From: Betaproteobacteria bacterium
GTDB lineage: Bacteria; Pseudomonadota; Gammaproteobacteria; Burkholderiales; Usitatibacteraceae
NCBI GenBank assembly: GCA_011391275.1
Contig: JAABQW010000033.1
Coordinates: forward strand, 1-35,134
Length of the DNA stretch: 35,134 nt
Direction of reading: 5' to 3'
The notes below the pieces were generated by a model. It did no database searches. It saw only the letters and a list, made by a program, of their open reading frames with translations, and was not told the origin of the DNA. Position numbers and translations under genes: made by a program. Position 1 is the stretch's first letter, and every line of letters begins with the position of its first letter. Below, one piece after another: positions 5,851-31,252 of the stretch.

Positions 5851-5958
5851 GGGTGGGCATCCAACGCGTAATCGGTGACACGCGAATTATCCGATGGGGC
5901 CACCTGCAGCGGGTTACCGTTCGTGCCGGGGAATGCGCGCTTCGTCGCATCGGCACGC

Positions 5959-25054: not shown

Positions 25055-25110
25055 CGCCAACAGGGGGGTGGACCGCGCCCGCGGCTCCGGCATACCCCCC
25101 CTTGTTGGCG
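25055..25110. terminator. Long inverted repeat after the peptide-utilisation operon
   Basis: CGCCAACAGGGGGGT (25055-25069) pairs with ACCCCCCCTTGTTGGCG (25094-25110) with a one-base bulge, enclosing a 24-base GC-rich loop. It begins 5 bp after the racD stop. No T-tract follows, so it is not a textbook intrinsic terminator. Its right arm merges into the first LytTR-like repeat (25108), so it may also insulate that promoter. Confidence 0.5.
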
Positions 25111-25176
25111 TTTCGCCCCGCCTTTTCCGCATTTCGTCGCTTTCCGCTTCAGCCCCCCTTGCAGCCTCCTTAATCT
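25108..25176 (+). promoter_or_regulatory. Site A: LytTR-type direct repeats plus -10 element
   Basis: GCGTTTCGCC (25108) and GCATTTCGTC (25129) are direct repeats 21 bp apart. TAATCT (25171) lies exactly 42 bp after the second repeat. The same elements at the same spacings recur at 25784/25805/25847 and 28049/28070/28112. A pair of 10-mers separated by 11 bp is the layout bound by LytTR regulators; E. coli YpdB uses, as I recall, GGCATTTCAT twice with an 11-bp spacer. The site would control the small membrane-protein genes at 25233 and 25538. Binding is inference. Confidence 0.65.
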
Positions 25177-25232
25177 GGCGACAAGTCAGAAGCGCCCGCC
25201 GGGCGCGAGGGCCGTGAAGAAGGAGAGAGACC

Positions 25233-25526
25233 ATGAGCAAACTCGAGAAGCTGGACCTGATGGGCGTTGCCTCCCTGGGTATCGTGACCGCCGCGCTGCT
25301 CGTGGGCTGGATCGCGACCACCCACGACATGGCCGCCCGCCATGCTCGCCAGGTCGCTCCCGCCCGGACGCAGGCCGTCGCCCTCACCGAGGGTGGCAGC
25401 ATGAAGCTCACGGTGACCGCCGAGCGCGACAGTGCCCCGAAGGCCACCACCACCCGCACCGCCTCCGTCCGGACCTCGGGCGGCCCGTCGCTGGAAGTCG
25501 CGCTGCCCTTCGTCTTCCGCCCGTAA
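25233..25526 (+). CDS. Small single-pass membrane protein, unknown function
   Basis: 97 aa, unrecognised. A short polar N-terminus (MSKLEKLDLM) leads into one membrane segment (about 9-28, ending LLVGWIATT). A 65-residue tail rich in Ala, Thr, Arg and Pro follows and ends PSLEVALPFVFRP, a beta-like or export-signal-like end. GAAGGAGAGAGACC directly before the ATG is a strong ribosome-binding site, and codon use is normal, so I take it as real. It is the first gene after LytTR site A and is followed 11 bp later by another tiny membrane-protein gene. Likely a target of the adjacent two-component systems. Confidence 0.65.
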   Translation: MSKLEKLDLMGVASLGIVTAALLVGWIATTHDMAARHARQVAPARTQAVALTEGGSMKLTVTAERDSAPKATTTRTASVRTSGGPSLEVALPFVFRP

Positions 25527-25537
25527 GGGAGGCGGCC

Positions 25538-25666
25538 ATGAGCTCGATCGACCGCGTCATCTCGCCGCAGGCTTTCCGGGTTTCCACGGCCGTCATCGTG
25601 GTGGTCGCAGGTTGGTTTGCGCTCACCTTCGCAATCACCGTGGGCAGGCTGCTGGCCGGCGCCTGA
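25538..25666 (+). CDS. 42-aa membrane peptide, unknown function
   Basis: Starts MSSIDRVISPQAFRVSTAVI and is almost wholly one membrane helix (about 14-38, VVVAGWFALTFAITVG), ending RLLAGA. GGGAGGCGG lies before the ATG. It is 11 bp downstream of the 97-aa membrane-protein gene and followed by a strong terminator at 25696, so the two form a short transcript. Short helical proteins like this can bind and modulate transporters or sensor kinases; that is speculation. Confidence 0.6.
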   Translation: MSSIDRVISPQAFRVSTAVIVVVAGWFALTFAITVGRLLAGA

Positions 25667-25695
25667 CCCACCTTCCAGCGTACGTCCCATCCCCC

Positions 25696-25720
25696 ACCCG
25701 GCCTCGGCCGGGTTTTTTTT
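25696..25720 (+). terminator. Intrinsic terminator
   Basis: ACCCGGCC/GGCCGGGT stem with a two-base tip (TC), followed by eight T residues (25713-25720). It ends the two-gene transcript of small membrane proteins. Confidence 0.9.
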
Positions 25721-25757
25721 GGGACGGTTCTGTAGACCGGTTCTGTAGAACCGTCCC
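25721..25757. repeat. Palindromic repeat GGGACGGTTCTGTAG...AGAACCGTCCC
   Basis: Outer arms GGGACGGTTCT and AGAACCGTCCC are perfect inverted repeats; the inner part repeats TTCTGTAGA around CCGG. It abuts the terminator T-run. In style it resembles the other short palindromic elements of the window, but the core differs, so it is a separate family with one copy here. Confidence 0.65.
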
Positions 25758-25783
25758 AGAAATCTGTCCGGTCACGGATGGGC

Positions 25784-25852
25784 GCGTCTCGAGGCTTTGC
25801 CGGCGCGTTTCGTCGCAGACGGGTGGCCCGGGGGAGGGGCGCCGCGTAGCCT
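25784..25852 (+). promoter_or_regulatory. Site B: LytTR-type direct repeats plus -10 element
   Basis: GCGTCTCGAG (25784, 7 of 10 bases as in the next copy) and GCGTTTCGTC (25805) are 21 bp apart; TAGCCT (25847) follows 42 bp after the second, the same geometry as sites A and C. It lies upstream of the 55-codon ORF at 25875 and of the first LytS/LytTR pair, so it would make that operon self-regulated. The weaker first copy and -10 lower certainty. Confidence 0.5.
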
Positions 25853-25874
25853 TCGATACAAGGAACCGAGAACC

Positions 25875-26042
25875 ATGAACCGACTCACCCGACCCCTGCC
25901 GACGCCGTGGAGCGAACGCTTCCGCGACATCTCTTTCCCCCGCCAGACGTCGCCCCGGGCGGACGCGCCGCCGTTCGCCACCCGCCCGGGCATCGCCGCC
26001 CGCTGGAAGCCGCGCGATCGCGTCAGGGTCGCCGGCAACTGA
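25875..26042 (+). CDS. Small basic protein, 55 aa, unknown
   Basis: Begins MNRLTRPLPTPWSERFRDIS and is rich in Pro and Arg, with no membrane segment and no recognisable domain. AAGGA (25860-25864) precedes the ATG at a suitable distance. The ORF starts 23 bp after the -10 of site B, which argues that it is translated. It ends 38 bp before the kinase start. It may be a short leader ORF or a genuine small protein. The open frame extends upstream to 25797, but that would run through the promoter. Confidence 0.4.
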   Translation: MNRLTRPLPTPWSERFRDISFPRQTSPRADAPPFATRPGIAARWKPRDRVRVAGN

Positions 26043-26080
26043 TACCCTTTCCGGCGACTACCCTCCCCACATTGGCCGCC

Positions 26081-27148
26081 GTGAACCGCATCGCGCATCT
26101 TTTCGAGGGACTGACGCTCAAGCGGGTGTTGCTGGTCACCTTCCTGTGCATCTGGGCGGCGGGGGCCACGGTGTGGTTCTTCGCCAACACCTACCTCGAC
26201 CTGCTGGTGAGCGCCCTGTGCGTGGGCTACACAAGCATGGTGCTGTTCACCGTCGCCACCAACGTGCGCGCCCACCGGCTGCCGCGCTGGGTGATCCAGG
26301 TCGCCTCCATCGTCGTGGGCTCCTTCCTCGGGACCACGCTCGCCGGCGTGGTGAAGGGCCGGGATATCGCGACGATGTTCACCGAGCGCTATTACGGCGT
26401 GCTCATTACGATGGGGCTGGGCATCGGCTTCGGGTGCATGGCGCTGTGGGTCTACGTGTTCCGCGAGCGCGAATCGCGCCACGCGGCGGAGCTCGCCCGG
26501 GCCCAGGCCGAGCGCGCGCAGCTCGAGAAGAACGTGCTGCAGGCGCAACTGGCCCTCATGCAGGCGCAGGTCGAGCCGCACTTCCTCTTCAATACGCTTG
26601 CCAACGTCCAGCACCTGGTGGAGACCGACCCGGCCTCGGCCTCGCGGATGCTCGAGAGCCTCATTCAGTACCTGCGCGGCGCCCTCCCGCGCATGCGCGA
26701 GGACACGACCACGGTCGGGCGCGAGCTGGACATGGCGAAGTCCTTCCTCGACATCCACCGCATGCGCATGGGCTCGCGCCTGGATTACGTCGTCGAGGTG
26801 CCCGAGGCGCTGCGCTGCCGCCTCTTCCCGCCGATGATGCTCATCACGCTCGTCGAGAACGCGGTGATCCACGGCGTCGACCCCTGCTGCGAGGCGGGCA
26901 CGATCACGATCCGCGCCTCCGAGCAGGACGGAAAGCTGCGCTTCTCGGTGGCCGACACCGGCCAGGGCATCTCGCCGAAGAAGGGCACGGGGGTCGGGCT
27001 CGTCAACATCCGCGAGCGGTTGAAGGCGCTCTACGGGGGTAGCGCGCGCCTGGTGATCGAGGAGAATGTGCCGCGCGGCGTGGTGGCGACCATCGAGGTG
27101 GACGTGCCAGCGGACCCCGTTGCCGCGCCGGCCGCGAAAGCGGCATGA
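26081..27148 (+). CDS. LytS/YpdA-type sensor histidine kinase (pair 1)
   Basis: 355 aa. Four membrane helices (about 15-35, 38-60, 70-90, 106-127) with very short loops and no periplasmic sensor domain are followed by a cytoplasmic coiled coil (130-162). The His_kinase box is QVEPHFLFNTLANVQ with phospho-acceptor His167; the ATPase domain shows LVENAVIHG (N box), DTGQGIS and GVGLVNIRERL (G boxes). The start is GTG at 26081; no good ribosome-binding site is seen, and no in-frame ATG exists before the first helix. Its partner regulator starts 9 bp downstream. With so little outside the membrane it probably senses a membrane event or a small membrane partner. Confidence 0.87.
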   Translation: MNRIAHLFEGLTLKRVLLVTFLCIWAAGATVWFFANTYLDLLVSALCVGYTSMVLFTVATNVRAHRLPRWVIQVASIVVGSFLGTTLAGVVKGRDIATMFTERYYGVLITMGLGIGFGCMALWVYVFRERESRHAAELARAQAERAQLEKNVLQAQLALMQAQVEPHFLFNTLANVQHLVETDPASASRMLESLIQYLRGALPRMREDTTTVGRELDMAKSFLDIHRMRMGSRLDYVVEVPEALRCRLFPPMMLITLVENAVIHGVDPCCEAGTITIRASEQDGKLRFSVADTGQGISPKKGTGVGLVNIRERLKALYGGSARLVIEENVPRGVVATIEVDVPADPVAAPAAKAA

Positions 27149-27157
27149 TGCCCGCCC

Positions 27158-27937
27158 ATGGGAGCCCCGACCGCCGTACTCGCCGATGACGAGCCCTTGC
27201 TGCGGGCGCAACTGCGCACGCGGCTTGCCCGGCTCTGGCCCGAGCTCGTGGTCGTCCACGAGATGGAGAACGGCCGCGACATCGAGCAGGTGATCGCGGC
27301 GCACGCCCCGCGCCTTTTCTTCCTGGACATCCACATGCCCGGGGTCAACGGGCTGGAGGCGGCGCGCACGATCGGCAAGCGTGCCCACGTGGTCTTTGTC
27401 ACCGCCTTCGACCAGTACGCGGTGGAGGCCTTCGAGCAGGGCGCCATCGACTACGTCCTGAAGCCCTTCAACGAGGAGCGGCTCGCCAGCACCGTGGAAC
27501 GCCTTCGGGAGCGGCTTTCGGCGGGCGCGCCGCAGGCCGCGGAAGAGGACGACGAGCGGGTGATGGCACTGGTCGAGCGGCTGGCCGGCCGCCTCGCCCC
27601 CCACGCCGCCGACCACCTGCGGTGGATCAAGGCGAGCGTGGGGCAGAACGTGCGCCTGATCCCGGTGGAGGAGGTGCTCTTCTTCCAGTCCGACGAGAAG
27701 TACACCCGGGTGGTGACGGCGGATGCGGAGACGCTCATCCGCAAGCCCATCAAGGAGCTCCTGGACGAGCTGGACCCCGACAAGTTCTGGCAGGTGCACC
27801 GCGCCACCATCGTGAACGTGGATGCCATCGCGTCCGTCCGCCGCGGCCTCAAGGACCAGGCGGAGATCGCCCTCAAGGGCCACCGCGAGACGCTCATCGT
27901 CTCGCGCAATTTCACCCACCTTTTCAAGCAGATGTAA
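27158..27937 (+). CDS. LytTR-family response regulator (pair 1)
   Basis: 259 aa. The receiver domain (about 1-120) has acidic pocket ADDEP (10-11), phospho-acceptor Asp57 in LFFLDIHMPG, Thr82 and Lys102 in DYVLKPF. The LytTR DNA-binding domain (about 150-255) has RWIKASVGQNVRLIPVEEV, FFQSDEKYTRVV and QVHRATIVNVDAI, ending SRNFTHLFKQM. LytTR proteins bind pairs of roughly 10-bp direct repeats, which fits sites A-C around it. It is closely similar to the regulator at 30494. Confidence 0.93.
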   Translation: MGAPTAVLADDEPLLRAQLRTRLARLWPELVVVHEMENGRDIEQVIAAHAPRLFFLDIHMPGVNGLEAARTIGKRAHVVFVTAFDQYAVEAFEQGAIDYVLKPFNEERLASTVERLRERLSAGAPQAAEEDDERVMALVERLAGRLAPHAADHLRWIKASVGQNVRLIPVEEVLFFQSDEKYTRVVTADAETLIRKPIKELLDELDPDKFWQVHRATIVNVDAIASVRRGLKDQAEIALKGHRETLIVSRNFTHLFKQM

Positions 27938-27940
27938 CCC

Positions 27941-28015
27941 GCAAAAAAAGGGGTCAGATCCCTTTTCGCCGCGCTCGCCCGGGCGACCCGAAAAAGGGAT
28001 CTGACCCCTTTTTGC
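27941..28015. repeat. Inverted pair of GGGATCTGACCCC palindromic repeats
   Basis: GCAAAAAAAGGGGTCAGATC... (27941-27966) faces its near-exact inverse (27991-28015, AAAAAGGGATCTGACCCCTT...TTTGC), with a 24-base GC-rich spacer containing GCCCGGGC. It begins 4 bp after the regulator stop, and the final T5 could make it a terminator for pair 1. The same unit occurs singly at 2967-2997. Confidence 0.85.
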
Positions 28016-28048
28016 GCAGGAACCGCCTCCATTCCAGCGGCCGCCCCT

Positions 28049-28117
28049 GCATTTCGCCCCCCGATTCCTGCAATCCGGCGCCTGGCCGTCGCCCCGGGCG
28101 AGCGGCTCCCCTAGTCT
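28049..28117 (+). promoter_or_regulatory. Site C: LytTR-type direct repeats plus -10 element
   Basis: GCATTTCGCC (28049) and GCAATCCGGC (28070) are spaced 21 bp; TAGTCT (28112) lies 42 bp after the second copy, as in sites A and B. After the -10 both A and C continue GGC (TAATCTGGC, TAGTCTGGC). The site is 53 bp upstream of the 36-aa membrane-protein gene and should also supply the second LytS/LytTR pair. Confidence 0.65.
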
Positions 28118-28169
28118 GGCCCCATCGAGGCCCCTTCCCGGGGCCCAAATGCCAACAGGGGGCCGCACC

Positions 28170-28280
28170 ATGATGTTCCTCGAAGCGCTCGGGCCGTCGC
28201 TGTCCACGATGTTCCTCTTCTTCGGCGTGCTGATGCTCTCGCTCGCCATCGCCGCGGTGTCGGTCCTCGAGGACTACTGA
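28170..28280 (+). CDS. 36-aa membrane peptide, unknown function
   Basis: Translation begins MMFLEALGPSLSTMFLFFGV and ends AVSVLEDY, nearly all one membrane helix (about 9-31) with an acidic C-terminus. AGGGGG lies 8 bases before the ATG; a second ATG is the next codon. It sits between LytTR site C and the second kinase gene (53-bp gap), mirroring the small membrane genes next to site A. Too short for a domain call; reality is supported by the promoter geometry, the ribosome-binding site and the coherent helix. Confidence 0.6.
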   Translation: MMFLEALGPSLSTMFLFFGVLMLSLAIAAVSVLEDY

Positions 28281-28332: not shown

Positions 28333-30483
28333 ATGAAACCCTTCTCCGACCTCATCCACCGCACGCCCTGGTGGGCCCTCATCCTGGGCGGCGCCGCCAC
28401 GCTCGCGGCGCTCGCGCTGTTCGTCACCCCCTTCCACCTCATCGAGTACCGCAAGGAGGGCGCCACCCCCGAGGAAAACCGCGCCATCAAGCGCGAGATC
28501 GACAACACCTTCGCGGAAGGCGCGCTCGGCGTGGCGAGGAGCGCCATCCTCACCCTGCGCGGGGCCACCACGGATCCCGCCCGCCTCGCGGAGCTCGACG
28601 GCGCCCTGGCGGAACTCGACAGCGCGCGCTCCGAGCTGCGCGAAGCCGACCGCGAAATCCGGCGTGCCAAGCGCGAGGCGATCGACAACGCCCGCGACGT
28701 CACGCGCGAGGCGGTCACCGCCATCGAGGAGGCGCGCCGCAGCGCCGAGCAGGCACTCAAGGACGCCGGGCTCGAGGACGAGAAGGTGAGCCGGGCGCTC
28801 GACCAGTCCCTCAAGTTGGCGCGCGAGGCCGAGGAAGAGGCCAGGAAGGCGACCGCCAAGGACGGCAAGCCCGCCGACGAGCGCAAGCGCATCGTCATCG
28901 GCCTGGGCAGCGACAAGGACAAGCCGCTTCTCGACATCGACGTCTCGAAGGCCGCACCCGGCGAGAAGCGGCGCATGGAGATCCGCACGCCCGGTTCCGG
29001 CAGCGGCGTCGTGATCGACCTCGACGGGGCGACCAAGGGCAAGGCGGCGGTGCCGCCCGTCCCCCCCGTCCCGCCGGTGCCCGGCGGCATCCAGCCTCCC
29101 GAGCCGCCCGCACCCCCCGCGATCACCATCGCGGAACTGCCGCCGGAAGTGCGCGCGCAGATCCGCCACAACGTGAGCGGCGACCTGAAGAAGATCGGCG
29201 TGGGAGCAGCCCTCGTGCTGCTCTTCATCCCGCTCTTCATCCTGGCCGTCGTCGCCAAGTTCTTCATCGACCGCTCGCGCGCCGCACAGCGCATGGCCGA
29301 CCTCAAGCGCAAGGAGGCCGAGTACCACCTCATGAGCCGGCAGGTGACGGAGGCGAAGCTGCAGGCGCTGCAGGCGCAAGTGGAGCCGCACTTCCTCTAC
29401 AACACGCTCGCCAACGTGCAGGCCCTCACCGAGGTGGATCCGGCGCGGGCCAACGTCATGGTGGGCCACCTCATCCAGTACCTGAGGAGCGCGCTGCCGA
29501 AGATGCGCGAGTCGATCTCCACCGTGGGGCAGGAGGTCGAGCTGGTGCGCGCCTACCTCAACATCCTGCAGATGCGCATGGGCAAGCGCCTCGCCTTCGA
29601 CATCGCGGTGCCCGAGAGCCTGCTCGCCACACCCTTCCCGCCGCTGATGCTGCCCTCGCTCGTCGAGAACGCCATCAAGCACGGCCTGGAGCCGCAGCGT
29701 GAGGGCGGCACCGTGATCATCACGGCGCAGGCGCAGGACGGGCGCCTGCGGCTCGTCGTCTCGGACACCGGCCGCGGCTTCGGCGAGACGGTGGGCGCGG
29801 GCGTGGGCCTGGAGAACATCCGCGAGCGCCTGCGCGCCCTCTACGGCGAGTCGGCGAAGCTCACGCTGGAGTCGAACTCGCCCAACGGCGTCATCGCGAC
29901 CATCGAGGTGCCGATGGACGGGCTGCGTGCCCCCGCGGCCGCGCCCGGCGCCGAGGGGCCCGCGCAGCCCGCACAGCCGCAGACCAAGGCGGGCAAGGTC
30001 CTCTCCGCCGTGGGCACGGCCGAACGCACGTGGAGGAAGACCCTTTCCTTCGCCTTCGTCGCGATGGTCGTCGTGGCGGCCGTCATCTCGGGCCTGCTCG
30101 TCTTCGGCGTGTTCATGGGCGAGGTGCCGATCCAGGTGGGCTCGGAGGCGATCACCGGCCCCGGCGGCGCGCTGCTGGGCGCGGTGGGGATCGCGATCGC
30201 GTTCGTGGCGGTGGTGGTCGTGCTGGCCGTGGTGACCGCGATCATCTACGGGCTGGGCTGGCTCTTCCTGGGGCTCGCGATCTTCATCCCGATCGTGGTC
30301 GTGATCGCCGTCTCGCCCGCGTTGGCGCCCGTGATCCTGCTGATCCTCGTCATCTGGTGGATCTTCCGCAAGAAGAAGCCGCCGGAGAAGGCGCCGGAGG
30401 AACGGGTGGAGCCGGTGCTGCAGGTACCACCGTCGCCGCCCGCCCCGCCGCCGATACCCGGGGAAGACCGCCCGGCCGGTTAG
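28333..30483 (+). CDS. LytS-type sensor histidine kinase with coiled coil and C-terminal membrane domain (pair 2)
   Basis: 716 aa, twice the size of the first kinase. Order: membrane helix (13-33); outside region with a long charged coiled coil (about 83-178) and a Pro-rich stretch (240-262, repeated PPVPPVPPVP); second helix (288-310); short cytoplasmic coiled coil; His_kinase box QVEPHFLYNTLANVQ with His353; ATPase domain with LVENAIKHG, DTGRGFG and GVGLENIRERL. After a linker, two or three further membrane segments (about 571-594, 613-640, 642-678) and a basic, Pro-rich tail. Membrane segments after the catalytic domain are unusual in this family. The kinase core is closely similar to that of pair 1. 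RR2 follows 10 bp later. Confidence 0.87.
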   Translation: MKPFSDLIHRTPWWALILGGAATLAALALFVTPFHLIEYRKEGATPEENRAIKREIDNTFAEGALGVARSAILTLRGATTDPARLAELDGALAELDSARSELREADREIRRAKREAIDNARDVTREAVTAIEEARRSAEQALKDAGLEDEKVSRALDQSLKLAREAEEEARKATAKDGKPADERKRIVIGLGSDKDKPLLDIDVSKAAPGEKRRMEIRTPGSGSGVVIDLDGATKGKAAVPPVPPVPPVPGGIQPPEPPAPPAITIAELPPEVRAQIRHNVSGDLKKIGVGAALVLLFIPLFILAVVAKFFIDRSRAAQRMADLKRKEAEYHLMSRQVTEAKLQALQAQVEPHFLYNTLANVQALTEVDPARANVMVGHLIQYLRSALPKMRESISTVGQEVELVRAYLNILQMRMGKRLAFDIAVPESLLATPFPPLMLPSLVENAIKHGLEPQREGGTVIITAQAQDGRLRLVVSDTGRGFGETVGAGVGLENIRERLRALYGESAKLTLESNSPNGVIATIEVPMDGLRAPAAAPGAEGPAQPAQPQTKAGKVLSAVGTAERTWRKTLSFAFVAMVVVAAVISGLLVFGVFMGEVPIQVGSEAITGPGGALLGAVGIAIAFVAVVVVLAVVTAIIYGLGWLFLGLAIFIPIVVVIAVSPALAPVILLILVIWWIFRKKKPPEKAPEERVEPVLQVPPSPPAPPPIPGEDRPAG

Positions 30484-30486
30484 AAT
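30481..30486 (+). promoter_or_regulatory. Possible internal -10 (TAGAAT) overlapping the kinase stop codon
   Basis: GGTTAGAATCGCGGGC places TAGAAT across the stop codon of the kinase and 7 bp before the regulator ATG. If used, the message would begin at or next to the ATG (leaderless). It is the same TAGAATCGCGG string as before ubiB. There is no visible -35, so this remains weak. Confidence 0.3.
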
Positions 30487-30493
30487 CGCGGGC

Positions 30494-31252
30494 ATGGCGA
30501 ACCCCACCGCGATACTGGCAGAAGACGAACCGATCCTGCGCGCCCAGCTCCAGGCCAAGCTCGCGAAGCTGTGGCCCGAGCTGGAGGTGATTGCCTCCGT
30601 GGAGGACGGCGCCGCCGCGCTGGAGGCGCTGGAGGACCGCGCGCCCGACTTCATGTTCCTCGACATCCAGATGCCGGAGATGACGGGCGTGGAGGTGGCG
30701 CGGCACGTTGGAGCGCGCGCGCATGTGGTGTTCGTGACGGCCTACGACCAGTACGCCATCCAGGCCTTCGAGACGGGCGCGGTGGACTACATCCTCAAGC
30801 CCTACACCGACGAGCGGCTCGCCGTCACCGTGGAGCGCCTGAAGGCCAAGCTCGCGACCCCGCCGCCGGATCTCAACGCCATCGTCTCGCGGCTCGCCTC
30901 GCAGCTTCGCGGCGGCGCGGCCAAGGAGAAGCTGCAGTGGATCAAGGCGAGCTTCGGGCAGAACCTGCGCCTGATTCCCGTGGCGGACGTCCTCTTCTTC
31001 CACTCCGATGAAAAGTACACGCGCGTGGTGACGGCGGAGGCCGAGGCGCTCATCAAGACACCCATCAGGGAGCTCCTCGACGGCCTCGACCCAGAGGTGT
31101 TCTGGCAGATCCACCGCTCGGTGATCGTCAACGTGAACGCCATCGCGGGCGTGACGCGCGACTTCCGCGGCCAGGCGCACATCAAGATCAAGGGCAAGGA
31201 CGAGACACTCACCGTCTCGCGCATCTACTCCCACCTCTTCAAGCAGATGTAA
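30494..31252 (+). CDS. LytTR-family response regulator (pair 2)
   Basis: 252 aa. Receiver domain with AEDEP (10-11), phospho-acceptor Asp57 in FMFLDIQMPE, VTAYDQYAIQAFETGAVDY and Lys102 in YILKPYTDE. The LytTR domain (about 145-250) has QWIKASFGQNLRLIPVADV, FFHSDEKYTRVV and QIHRSVIVNVNAI, ending SHLFKQM. Identity with the first regulator is high over the whole length, including the DNA-contacting part, so the two may recognise the same repeats. This points to tandem duplication of a kinase-regulator cassette followed by divergence of the sensor part. Confidence 0.93.
   Translation: MANPTAILAEDEPILRAQLQAKLAKLWPELEVIASVEDGAAALEALEDRAPDFMFLDIQMPEMTGVEVARHVGARAHVVFVTAYDQYAIQAFETGAVDYILKPYTDERLAVTVERLKAKLATPPPDLNAIVSRLASQLRGGAAKEKLQWIKASFGQNLRLIPVADVLFFHSDEKYTRVVTAEAEALIKTPIRELLDGLDPEVFWQIHRSVIVNVNAIAGVTRDFRGQAHIKIKGKDETLTVSRIYSHLFKQM

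Follow-up and report, generated by a model that had tools for sequence, protein, structure and literature searches.

Can the target genes of a LytTR-type two-component system be read from the genome through a promoter of fixed build? This question is raised by contig JAABQW010000033.1 of a Betaproteobacteria bacterium (order Burkholderiales, family Usitatibacteraceae; assembly GCA_011391275.1), whose positions 1 to 35,134 (35,134 nt) are hereafter called the window. Two tandem LytTR-type systems, HK1-RR1 (26081-27937) and HK2-RR2 (28333-31252), lie there beside three sites, termed A, B and C, in which a pair of direct repeats is followed at a fixed distance by a hexamer resembling the -10 element of a promoter. 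The original prediction, made from the DNA letters, took these sites as a LytTR regulon motif. We consider this claim well supported as far as genome sequences can tell, since the refutation checks that were run did not refute it and the matches cluster at LytTR genes. The sites A-C are very likely to be LytTR-activated promoters. They share one fixed promoter design that is met throughout the family, and such sensors probably use it to activate their own genes as well as those of tiny membrane proteins and of efflux pumps.

Three sites in the window

All three sites are intergenic, with the genes read from the sequence (Table 1). The positions of the three pairs of GCRTTTCGYC and their 21-bp spacing stand as predicted, but the copies are not all alike: both are perfect in site A, whereas sites B and C each have one perfect copy and one with three mismatches. 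By direct reading and pattern search, the hexamers TAATCT, TAGCCT and TAGTCT each begin exactly 42 bp from the start of the second copy, also as predicted. The repeats, 10 nt long and separated by 11 bp, agree with the published layout of LytTR sites, i.e., repeats of 9-11 nt that are 11-13 bp apart (PMC4847170).

Then, could such pairs occur by chance? With no more than three mismatches, the box pair is found three times in the window versus 0.09 expected, and one of 100 shuffled sequences also reached three; the repeats alone are only moderately significant. The search for a single box is weak by itself, with 22 matches versus 13.9 expected at no more than one mismatch. A held-out matrix was then based on 20 deduplicated promoters from other genera, all picked for the pair and for [TC]ANNNT at offset 32, that is, 32 nt after box 2. 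On both strands of the window, its top three matches are A (50.5), C (34.3) and B (29.7), followed by a fourth at 10.3, and the reversed-sequence control peaks at 3.1. When the matrix is reduced to the boxes, A-C lead again (38.3, 22.0 and 21.1), with position 5916 near behind (19.4) and the control at 9.9.

At 5916-5946 there is a fourth box pair (ACCGTTCGTG / GCGCTTCGTC), with TAGAAT 12 nt past box 2. Its geometry differs from that of sites A-C, and it is perhaps a repressor site.

Recurrence in the family and the order

The pair was searched for in 100 genomes, namely the window's own genome, 7 from its genus, 20 from the family's remaining genera and 72 from other families of the order. 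With no more than one mismatch it is present in 15 genomes (its own, 5/7, 7/20 and 2/72, respectively), with 22 matches listed versus 3 for the reversed pattern. With no more than two mismatches, 25 of the 28 family genomes contain the pair, and 74 matches are obtained versus 19 in the reversed control. Consequently, the random placement that would have spoken against the motif is not what is seen, and this holds for the promoter spacing as well: 76 unique pair sites, including two from other families, were read together with the flanking sequence, and TANNNT is located exactly 32 nt after box 2 in 35 of them; no other offset from 0 to 79 has more than two. Seven further sites have CANNNT at the same offset. 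Of the 52 deduplicated pair matches outside the genus, 19 have TANNNT at offset 32, again with at most two at any other offset. Loss of the repeats from orthologous regions, the other outcome that would have counted against the motif, is likewise not observed, since they are kept upstream of similar genes within the genus. In some cases (L171 and L152), triple boxes, each 21 bp apart, are located upstream of one promoter.

It might be supposed that the sites are a product of chance or a dispersed repeat element, as the repeats alone are matched by one shuffle in 100 and other inverted repeats are located nearby. However, the held-out ranking, the offset test and the conservation are hard to reconcile with either, and the flanks and spacers differ among the unlinked sites, so that the probability of this explanation is practically negligible.

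A family promoter model yields 202 matches at E <= 0.05 in all 28 family genomes, where about 1.4 are expected; the matches include the 31 training sites. For the model R1, two doubtful sequences (L153 and L157) were dropped from 33, while for the model R2, two sequences without a -10 (L104:3901 and L108:4346) were dropped from 28, and the 26 kept were joined with 10 sequences from the family or the window. With a broader model, a match at E <= 0.001 is obtained in 46 of 250 genomes of the order, of which 38 do not belong to the family. Judged from these predicted sites, the promoter design extends beyond the family to others of the order, where the box has drifted. Across the phylum, the broader model finds matches in 9 of 199 genomes; the four outside the order are weak (E from 1.4e-5 to 9.6e-4).

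Promoter anatomy

The anatomy of the promoter was summarized from 33 deduplicated promoters, two of which are doubtful and were later dropped. Box 1 (GCRTTTCGYCCCC) is followed by an 11-bp spacer with a T-rich middle and by box 2 (GCATTTCGTCGC), which is the better conserved of the two. A -35-like element is found 9 bp past box 2, with T at +40 in 27/33 and G at +42 in 23/33 promoters, and then come a 17-bp spacer, the -10 element TANNNT and a CA at the expected start (+74/75). The LytTR Regulatory Systems (LRS) show comparable features: their repeats, mostly 12 and sometimes 11 or 13 bp apart, tend to lie 10 bp upstream of the -35, and positive autoregulation is described (PMC6193735). The box-to--35 distance of 9 bp, fixed in the promoter set, agrees with this rule of about 10 bp, which was stated for LRS operons. 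The paired-repeat geometry matches the published LytTR layouts (PMC4847170, PMC6193735).

This anatomy bears on two alternatives. The boxes could be part of a promoter for an alternative (ECF) sigma factor instead of an activator site, as the fixed spacing from box 2 to the -10 would allow. Such a promoter, however, would leave unexplained the two repeats 21 bp apart, the further copy that some sites (L152 and L171) have at the same distance of 21 bp, and the -10 of sigma-70 type, from which a distinct -35-like element is separated by 17 bp; all of these make it highly improbable. The same regulators could also act as repressors at these boxes. We regard repression as quite unlikely, because the boxes stand clear of the core promoter, on the upstream side of the -35, because the weakness of the -35 would suit dependence on an activator, and because the published analogue at the same position, HdrR, activates (PMC6193735).

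Linkage to LytTR genes

If the motif serves LytTR regulators, it should be met at loci chosen for the regulator. Eighty loci from named genomes were fetched by homology to RR1, with the motif not used. On these loci, the family matrix gives 41 matches above 12 versus none in the reversed sequence. With a slightly wider position set, the first round finds matches above 15 in 16 of the 68 distant loci and no control match; after the matrix was retrained on its own matches, 30 of the 68 have a match above 15, two or three of which are doubtful, and still no control match exceeds 15. In the Massilia-type loci, the order is promoter, 82-93 aa gene, kinase-like frame and regulator in 15 of the 15 checked. 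As to location in three complete genomes, 7 of 12, 3 of 9 and 4 of 9 promoter matches listed (of 15, 9 and 11 found) are no more than 4 kb from a listed RR1 relative, and this zone covers about 1% of each genome.

Which LytTR protein binds the sites is a separate question. RR1 and RR2 are likely to be the main binders. It is nevertheless possible, although we hold it to be the less probable case, that the main binder of the promoters is another LytTR paralogue, or a pool of paralogues with one shared specificity, of which RR1 and RR2 are a part or mere neighbours. There are many RR1 relatives per genome, weaker model matches adjoin other LytTR genes, and in the genome G010 the pair with its -10 also precedes a third kinase-LytTR regulator operon (L158). 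On the other hand, most LytTR-linked matches in G010 and G014 are located at the RR1/RR2 locus, and the loci chosen by RR1 homology in other families carry the promoter. In the window's own genome, a place upstream of another kinase gene (L255, on contig C35 of G000), near the RR1 relative C35:31964, has a good box 1 and TAATCT with a poor box 2 (model E 1.8).

Predicted regulon

The window's genome comprises 3.27 Mb and is 81% complete. Of 4577 candidate places in it, 150 were scored, using a model whose training set included site A and orthologues of B and C. Among the places scored, six sites have E <= 2.2e-5, namely A, B and C and one each on the contigs C1, C257 and C254. The genes downstream of the latter three encode a secreted 256-aa protein, an efflux membrane-fusion protein and a 77-aa membrane protein, respectively; for each of them, other species have a similar gene behind the same promoter. 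The C1 site (L001) is located just downstream of an ORF whose end resembles, by eye, the TonB C-terminal domain.

For the family, 114 promoters lead to 106 downstream frames; since these loci were chosen by the motif, the counts describe the targets and are no test of the motif. The targets include several clusters of small proteins, a cluster of 13 with membrane-fusion proteins among them, and prolyl oligopeptidases, DUF2807, DUF5916, ABC ATPases and kinases; several of them (e.g., L026, L028, L297 and L299) sit behind weak or imperfect -10s. A domain check of ten target representatives left four without a Pfam match. Of the loci found with the broader model, 25 were read for downstream genes; MacB-like ABC ATPases, named by eye, follow three promoters outside the family (L318, L322 and L329).

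The predicted targets consequently comprise the two kinase-regulator operons as well as genes for tiny proteins, for efflux adaptors and for secreted proteins. The original prediction had named tiny membrane proteins plus the kinase operon; the kinase operons and the tiny proteins stand, but the list was too narrow, and the 55-aa product of site B is basic and not obviously a membrane protein. From the gene list, the regulon looks like one of envelope protection.

Proposed mechanism

On the observed sequence, geometry, conservation and linkage to LytTR genes, the sites A-C would be activator-dependent promoters of the sigma-70 type, with RR1, RR2 or both most likely as the regulator. HK1 and HK2 both have His_kinase (PF06580) and HATPase_c domains, as expected of partner kinases, and RR1 and RR2 both have receiver and LytTR domains above the Pfam cut-offs. 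Once phosphorylated, the regulator would presumably bind the direct repeats GCRTTTCGYC-N11-GCATTTCGTC, two helical turns apart, and, standing beside the weak -35 (9 bp from box 2 and 17 bp before the TANNNT -10), would recruit sigma-70 RNA polymerase, i.e., activate rather than repress. With sites B and C before the two kinase-regulator operons, each system would be self-activating. RR2 is 61% identical to RR1, and cross-activation is possible because they are alike in the DNA-binding domain, which alone is 68% identical. Site A would drive two small proteins (97 and 42 aa), and the three unlinked sites of the same build would add the secreted protein, the 77-aa membrane protein and the efflux membrane-fusion operon.

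It should be noted that several observations weigh against this reading. Of the 76 pair sites, 34 have neither TANNNT nor CANNNT at offset 32, and a few of these carry a third box 21 bp further along or have the hexamer at offset 33. In the other families of the order, pair matches are rare (two genomes; L020 and L021) and both are without a -10, and therefore the claim outside the family rests on the drifted box. Of the 41 matches in the loci chosen by RR1 homology, 25 come from the first 12 loci, where there is overlap with the family genomes used in training, and 16 from the 68 distant loci, 38 of which have no match even after retraining. The -10 of the C1 site is CAAGGT and not TANNNT. 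As the training sites of the matrices and models were selected by the motif and had a -10, the independent tests are the held-out matrix, the first-round scan of the distant loci and the location test. Finally, the window's genome has at least two further LytTR regulators, and the binding paralogue may be one of these.

TonB-box-like peptides in the small targets

What could the tiny proteins do? In many of the small targets, a membrane segment or signal-like stretch at the N-terminus (by eye) is followed by a TonB-box-like peptide, e.g., FDTIVVTASRAPDVRLDTIVVTASR in L295. Other bearers include the 97-aa protein of the window, in the diverged form SMKLTVTAERD, and L220, L319 and L311. A strict TonB-box-like motif is present in 16 of 59 deduplicated small targets of the family versus a shuffle mean of 0.06, with two copies in four proteins. 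Outside the family, where the promoters were found without use of the small proteins, a slightly looser motif is present in 11 of 26 small targets versus 0.15 in shuffles, with three copies in one protein. By comparison, it is present in 5 of the 794 remaining ORFs with a start codon at these loci. These figures are indicative, since the motif was defined after viewing the family proteins and loosened after viewing some of the others, many targets are interrelated, and many of the 794 control ORFs are probably spurious. The Massilia-type targets are without the motif.

A TonB-box-like segment is also found in three of five TonB-dependent receptors of the same genome (ETIVVTAARAPQR, VEKLTVTGSR and SVLVTAPR). 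The small targets with such a peptide are candidate bearers of a TonB box by sequence likeness. A more speculative idea, to which we would give a rather low probability, is that the tiny membrane-anchored or exported proteins are the main effectors and carry one to three periplasmic TonB-box mimics. When envelope damage is sensed, they would occupy TonB or a TonB-like protein, and outer-membrane transport would be throttled or energy diverted, as a stress-induced TonB brake across the order.

Known systems and meaning

The regulatory kind is already known. A similar box is that of YpdA/YpdB of E. coli, a LytTR regulator system acting at the promoter of yhjX. The original prediction had given it correctly as GGCATTTCAT-N11-GGCATTTCAT, with the same 21-bp period and GCATTTC core (PMC4847170). 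In contrast to it, the box here continues with GTCGC, and the predicted targets differ from yhjX, a putative antiporter gene (PMC5552118). No YpdB model is among the best 25 NCBIfam matches listed for RR1. The related BtsR equivalog (NCBIfam NF008677) was also considered and rejected, as RR1 and RR2 score 129.8 and 133 bits versus a curated cut-off of 246.

AlgZ/AlgR of Pseudomonas is likewise a LytTR system, whose core CCGTTCGTC (PMC4064291) is present within box 2 of several Massilia loci (ACCGTTCGTC). Comparing the box alone, TTCGTC is shared with the box here, and the AlgR core is as close as the YpdB box, or closer, to the drifted box of the other families. Judged by these likenesses, the family box is intermediate between GGCATTTCAT-N11-GGCATTTCAT of YpdB and CCGTTCGTC of AlgR. 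However, AlgR sites are described as not necessarily tandem at a fixed distance (PMC4064291), while the tandem layout here is rigid.

HdrRM and BrsRM of Streptococcus mutans, which are LRS, share direct repeats 11-13 bp apart near the -35 and the positive autoregulation that is predicted here (PMC6193735). The assignment to LRS was nevertheless rejected, since an LRS regulator pairs with a membrane inhibitor, and both regulators here come after a histidine kinase. The same DNA-binding domain is present in AgrA of Staphylococcus (LytTR structures, e.g., 3bs1), which gives a profile match at E 0.0029. However, AgrA is distant in sequence, and a different protein, 3d6w, is matched better among the PDB entries (E 2.2e-12).

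Among the open-licence papers listed in the literature searches, none dealt with the box, the rigid family-wide geometry, the regulon or the small proteins, nor with small proteins bearing a TonB box or with any LytTR regulon of beta-proteobacteria. The promoter would provide an exact, searchable signature for a large set of beta-proteobacterial LytTR two-component systems, with which genomes could be read for their regulons. Positive autoregulation is predicted from it, as is a possible cross-regulation between tandem paralogues. It also connects a single regulator family with dozens of small proteins (about 30-130 aa), most of which have no family; the recurring TonB-box-like peptide in many of them suggests a testable function.

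Genes and other features of the window

The features are listed in Table 1. Four small genes are located around the kinase-regulator pairs, two past site A and one each past sites B and C, and the gene order is site B, 55-aa gene, HK1 and site C, 36-aa gene, HK2. None of the four has a family match in Pfam (E up to 0.001) or NCBIfam (E up to 0.01). A search of viral contigs yielded no relative of the 97-aa protein, and no RNA family is present in the window at the gathering threshold.

Table 1. Predicted promoter elements and genes around the two LytTR-type systems of the window
Feature	Position	Strand	Remarks
Site A box 1, GCGTTTCGCC	25108..25117	+	Direct reading, pattern search, held-out matrix
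Site A box 2, GCATTTCGTC	25129..25138	+	Direct reading, pattern search, held-out matrix
Site A weak -35-like element, TTCAGC	25148..25153	+	9 bp past box 2 and 17 bp before the -10; without the G at +42 of the promoter set
Site A -10, TAATCT	25171..25176	+	Predicted start A at 25183, from the conserved CA at +74/75
97-aa protein	25233..25526	+	One membrane segment (by eye); TonB-box-like peptide; no Pfam/NCBIfam match
42-aa membrane protein (by eye)	25538..25666	+	Probably co-transcribed with the 97-aa gene; no family match
Site B box 1, GCGTCTCGAG	25784..25793	+	3 mismatches; direct reading, pattern search
Site B box 2, GCGTTTCGTC	25805..25814	+	Perfect copy; held-out matrix
Site B weak -35-like element, TGGCCC	25824..25829	+	Position taken from the promoter set
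Site B -10, TAGCCT	25847..25852	+	Predicted start about 25858-25859
55-aa basic protein ending GIAARWKPRDRVRVAGN	25875..26042	+	Similar proteins under the same promoter in other genomes (cluster of 6)
HK1 histidine kinase (His_kinase and HATPase_c)	26081..27148	+	Pfam; membrane segments by eye
RR1 response regulator (receiver and LytTR)	27158..27937	+	Pfam; relatives in 28/28 family genomes
Site C box 1, GCATTTCGCC	28049..28058	+	Perfect copy; held-out matrix
Site C box 2, GCAATCCGGC	28070..28079	+	3 mismatches; direct reading, pattern search
Site C weak -35-like element, TCGCCC	28089..28094	+	Position taken from the promoter set
Site C -10, TAGTCT	28112..28117	+	Predicted start A at 28124
36-aa protein ending VLEDY	28170..28280	+	One membrane segment (by eye); cluster of 8, promoter-found
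HK2, 716-aa histidine kinase	28333..30483	+	Pfam; extra membrane segments beyond the ATPase domain by eye
RR2 response regulator (receiver and LytTR)	30494..31252	+	Pfam; 61% identical to RR1

HK2 has a long coiled N-terminal stretch and, past the ATPase domain, membrane segments, a layout that is unusual for the kinase type (by eye). A C-terminal peptide resembling GIAARWKPRDRV is conserved in the family of the 55-aa gene (also L143, L172 and L177), whose copies are all promoter-found. The stretch from RR1 to site C contains, at 27938-28020, a 29-nt inverted repeat with 90% complementarity (AAAAAAAGGGGTCAGATCCC...), which may be a dispersed repeat element or a terminator. A 21-nt inverted repeat around GGGACGGTTCTGTAGA, which may be a terminator or a repeat element, is located at 25716-25762, between the 42-aa gene and site B.

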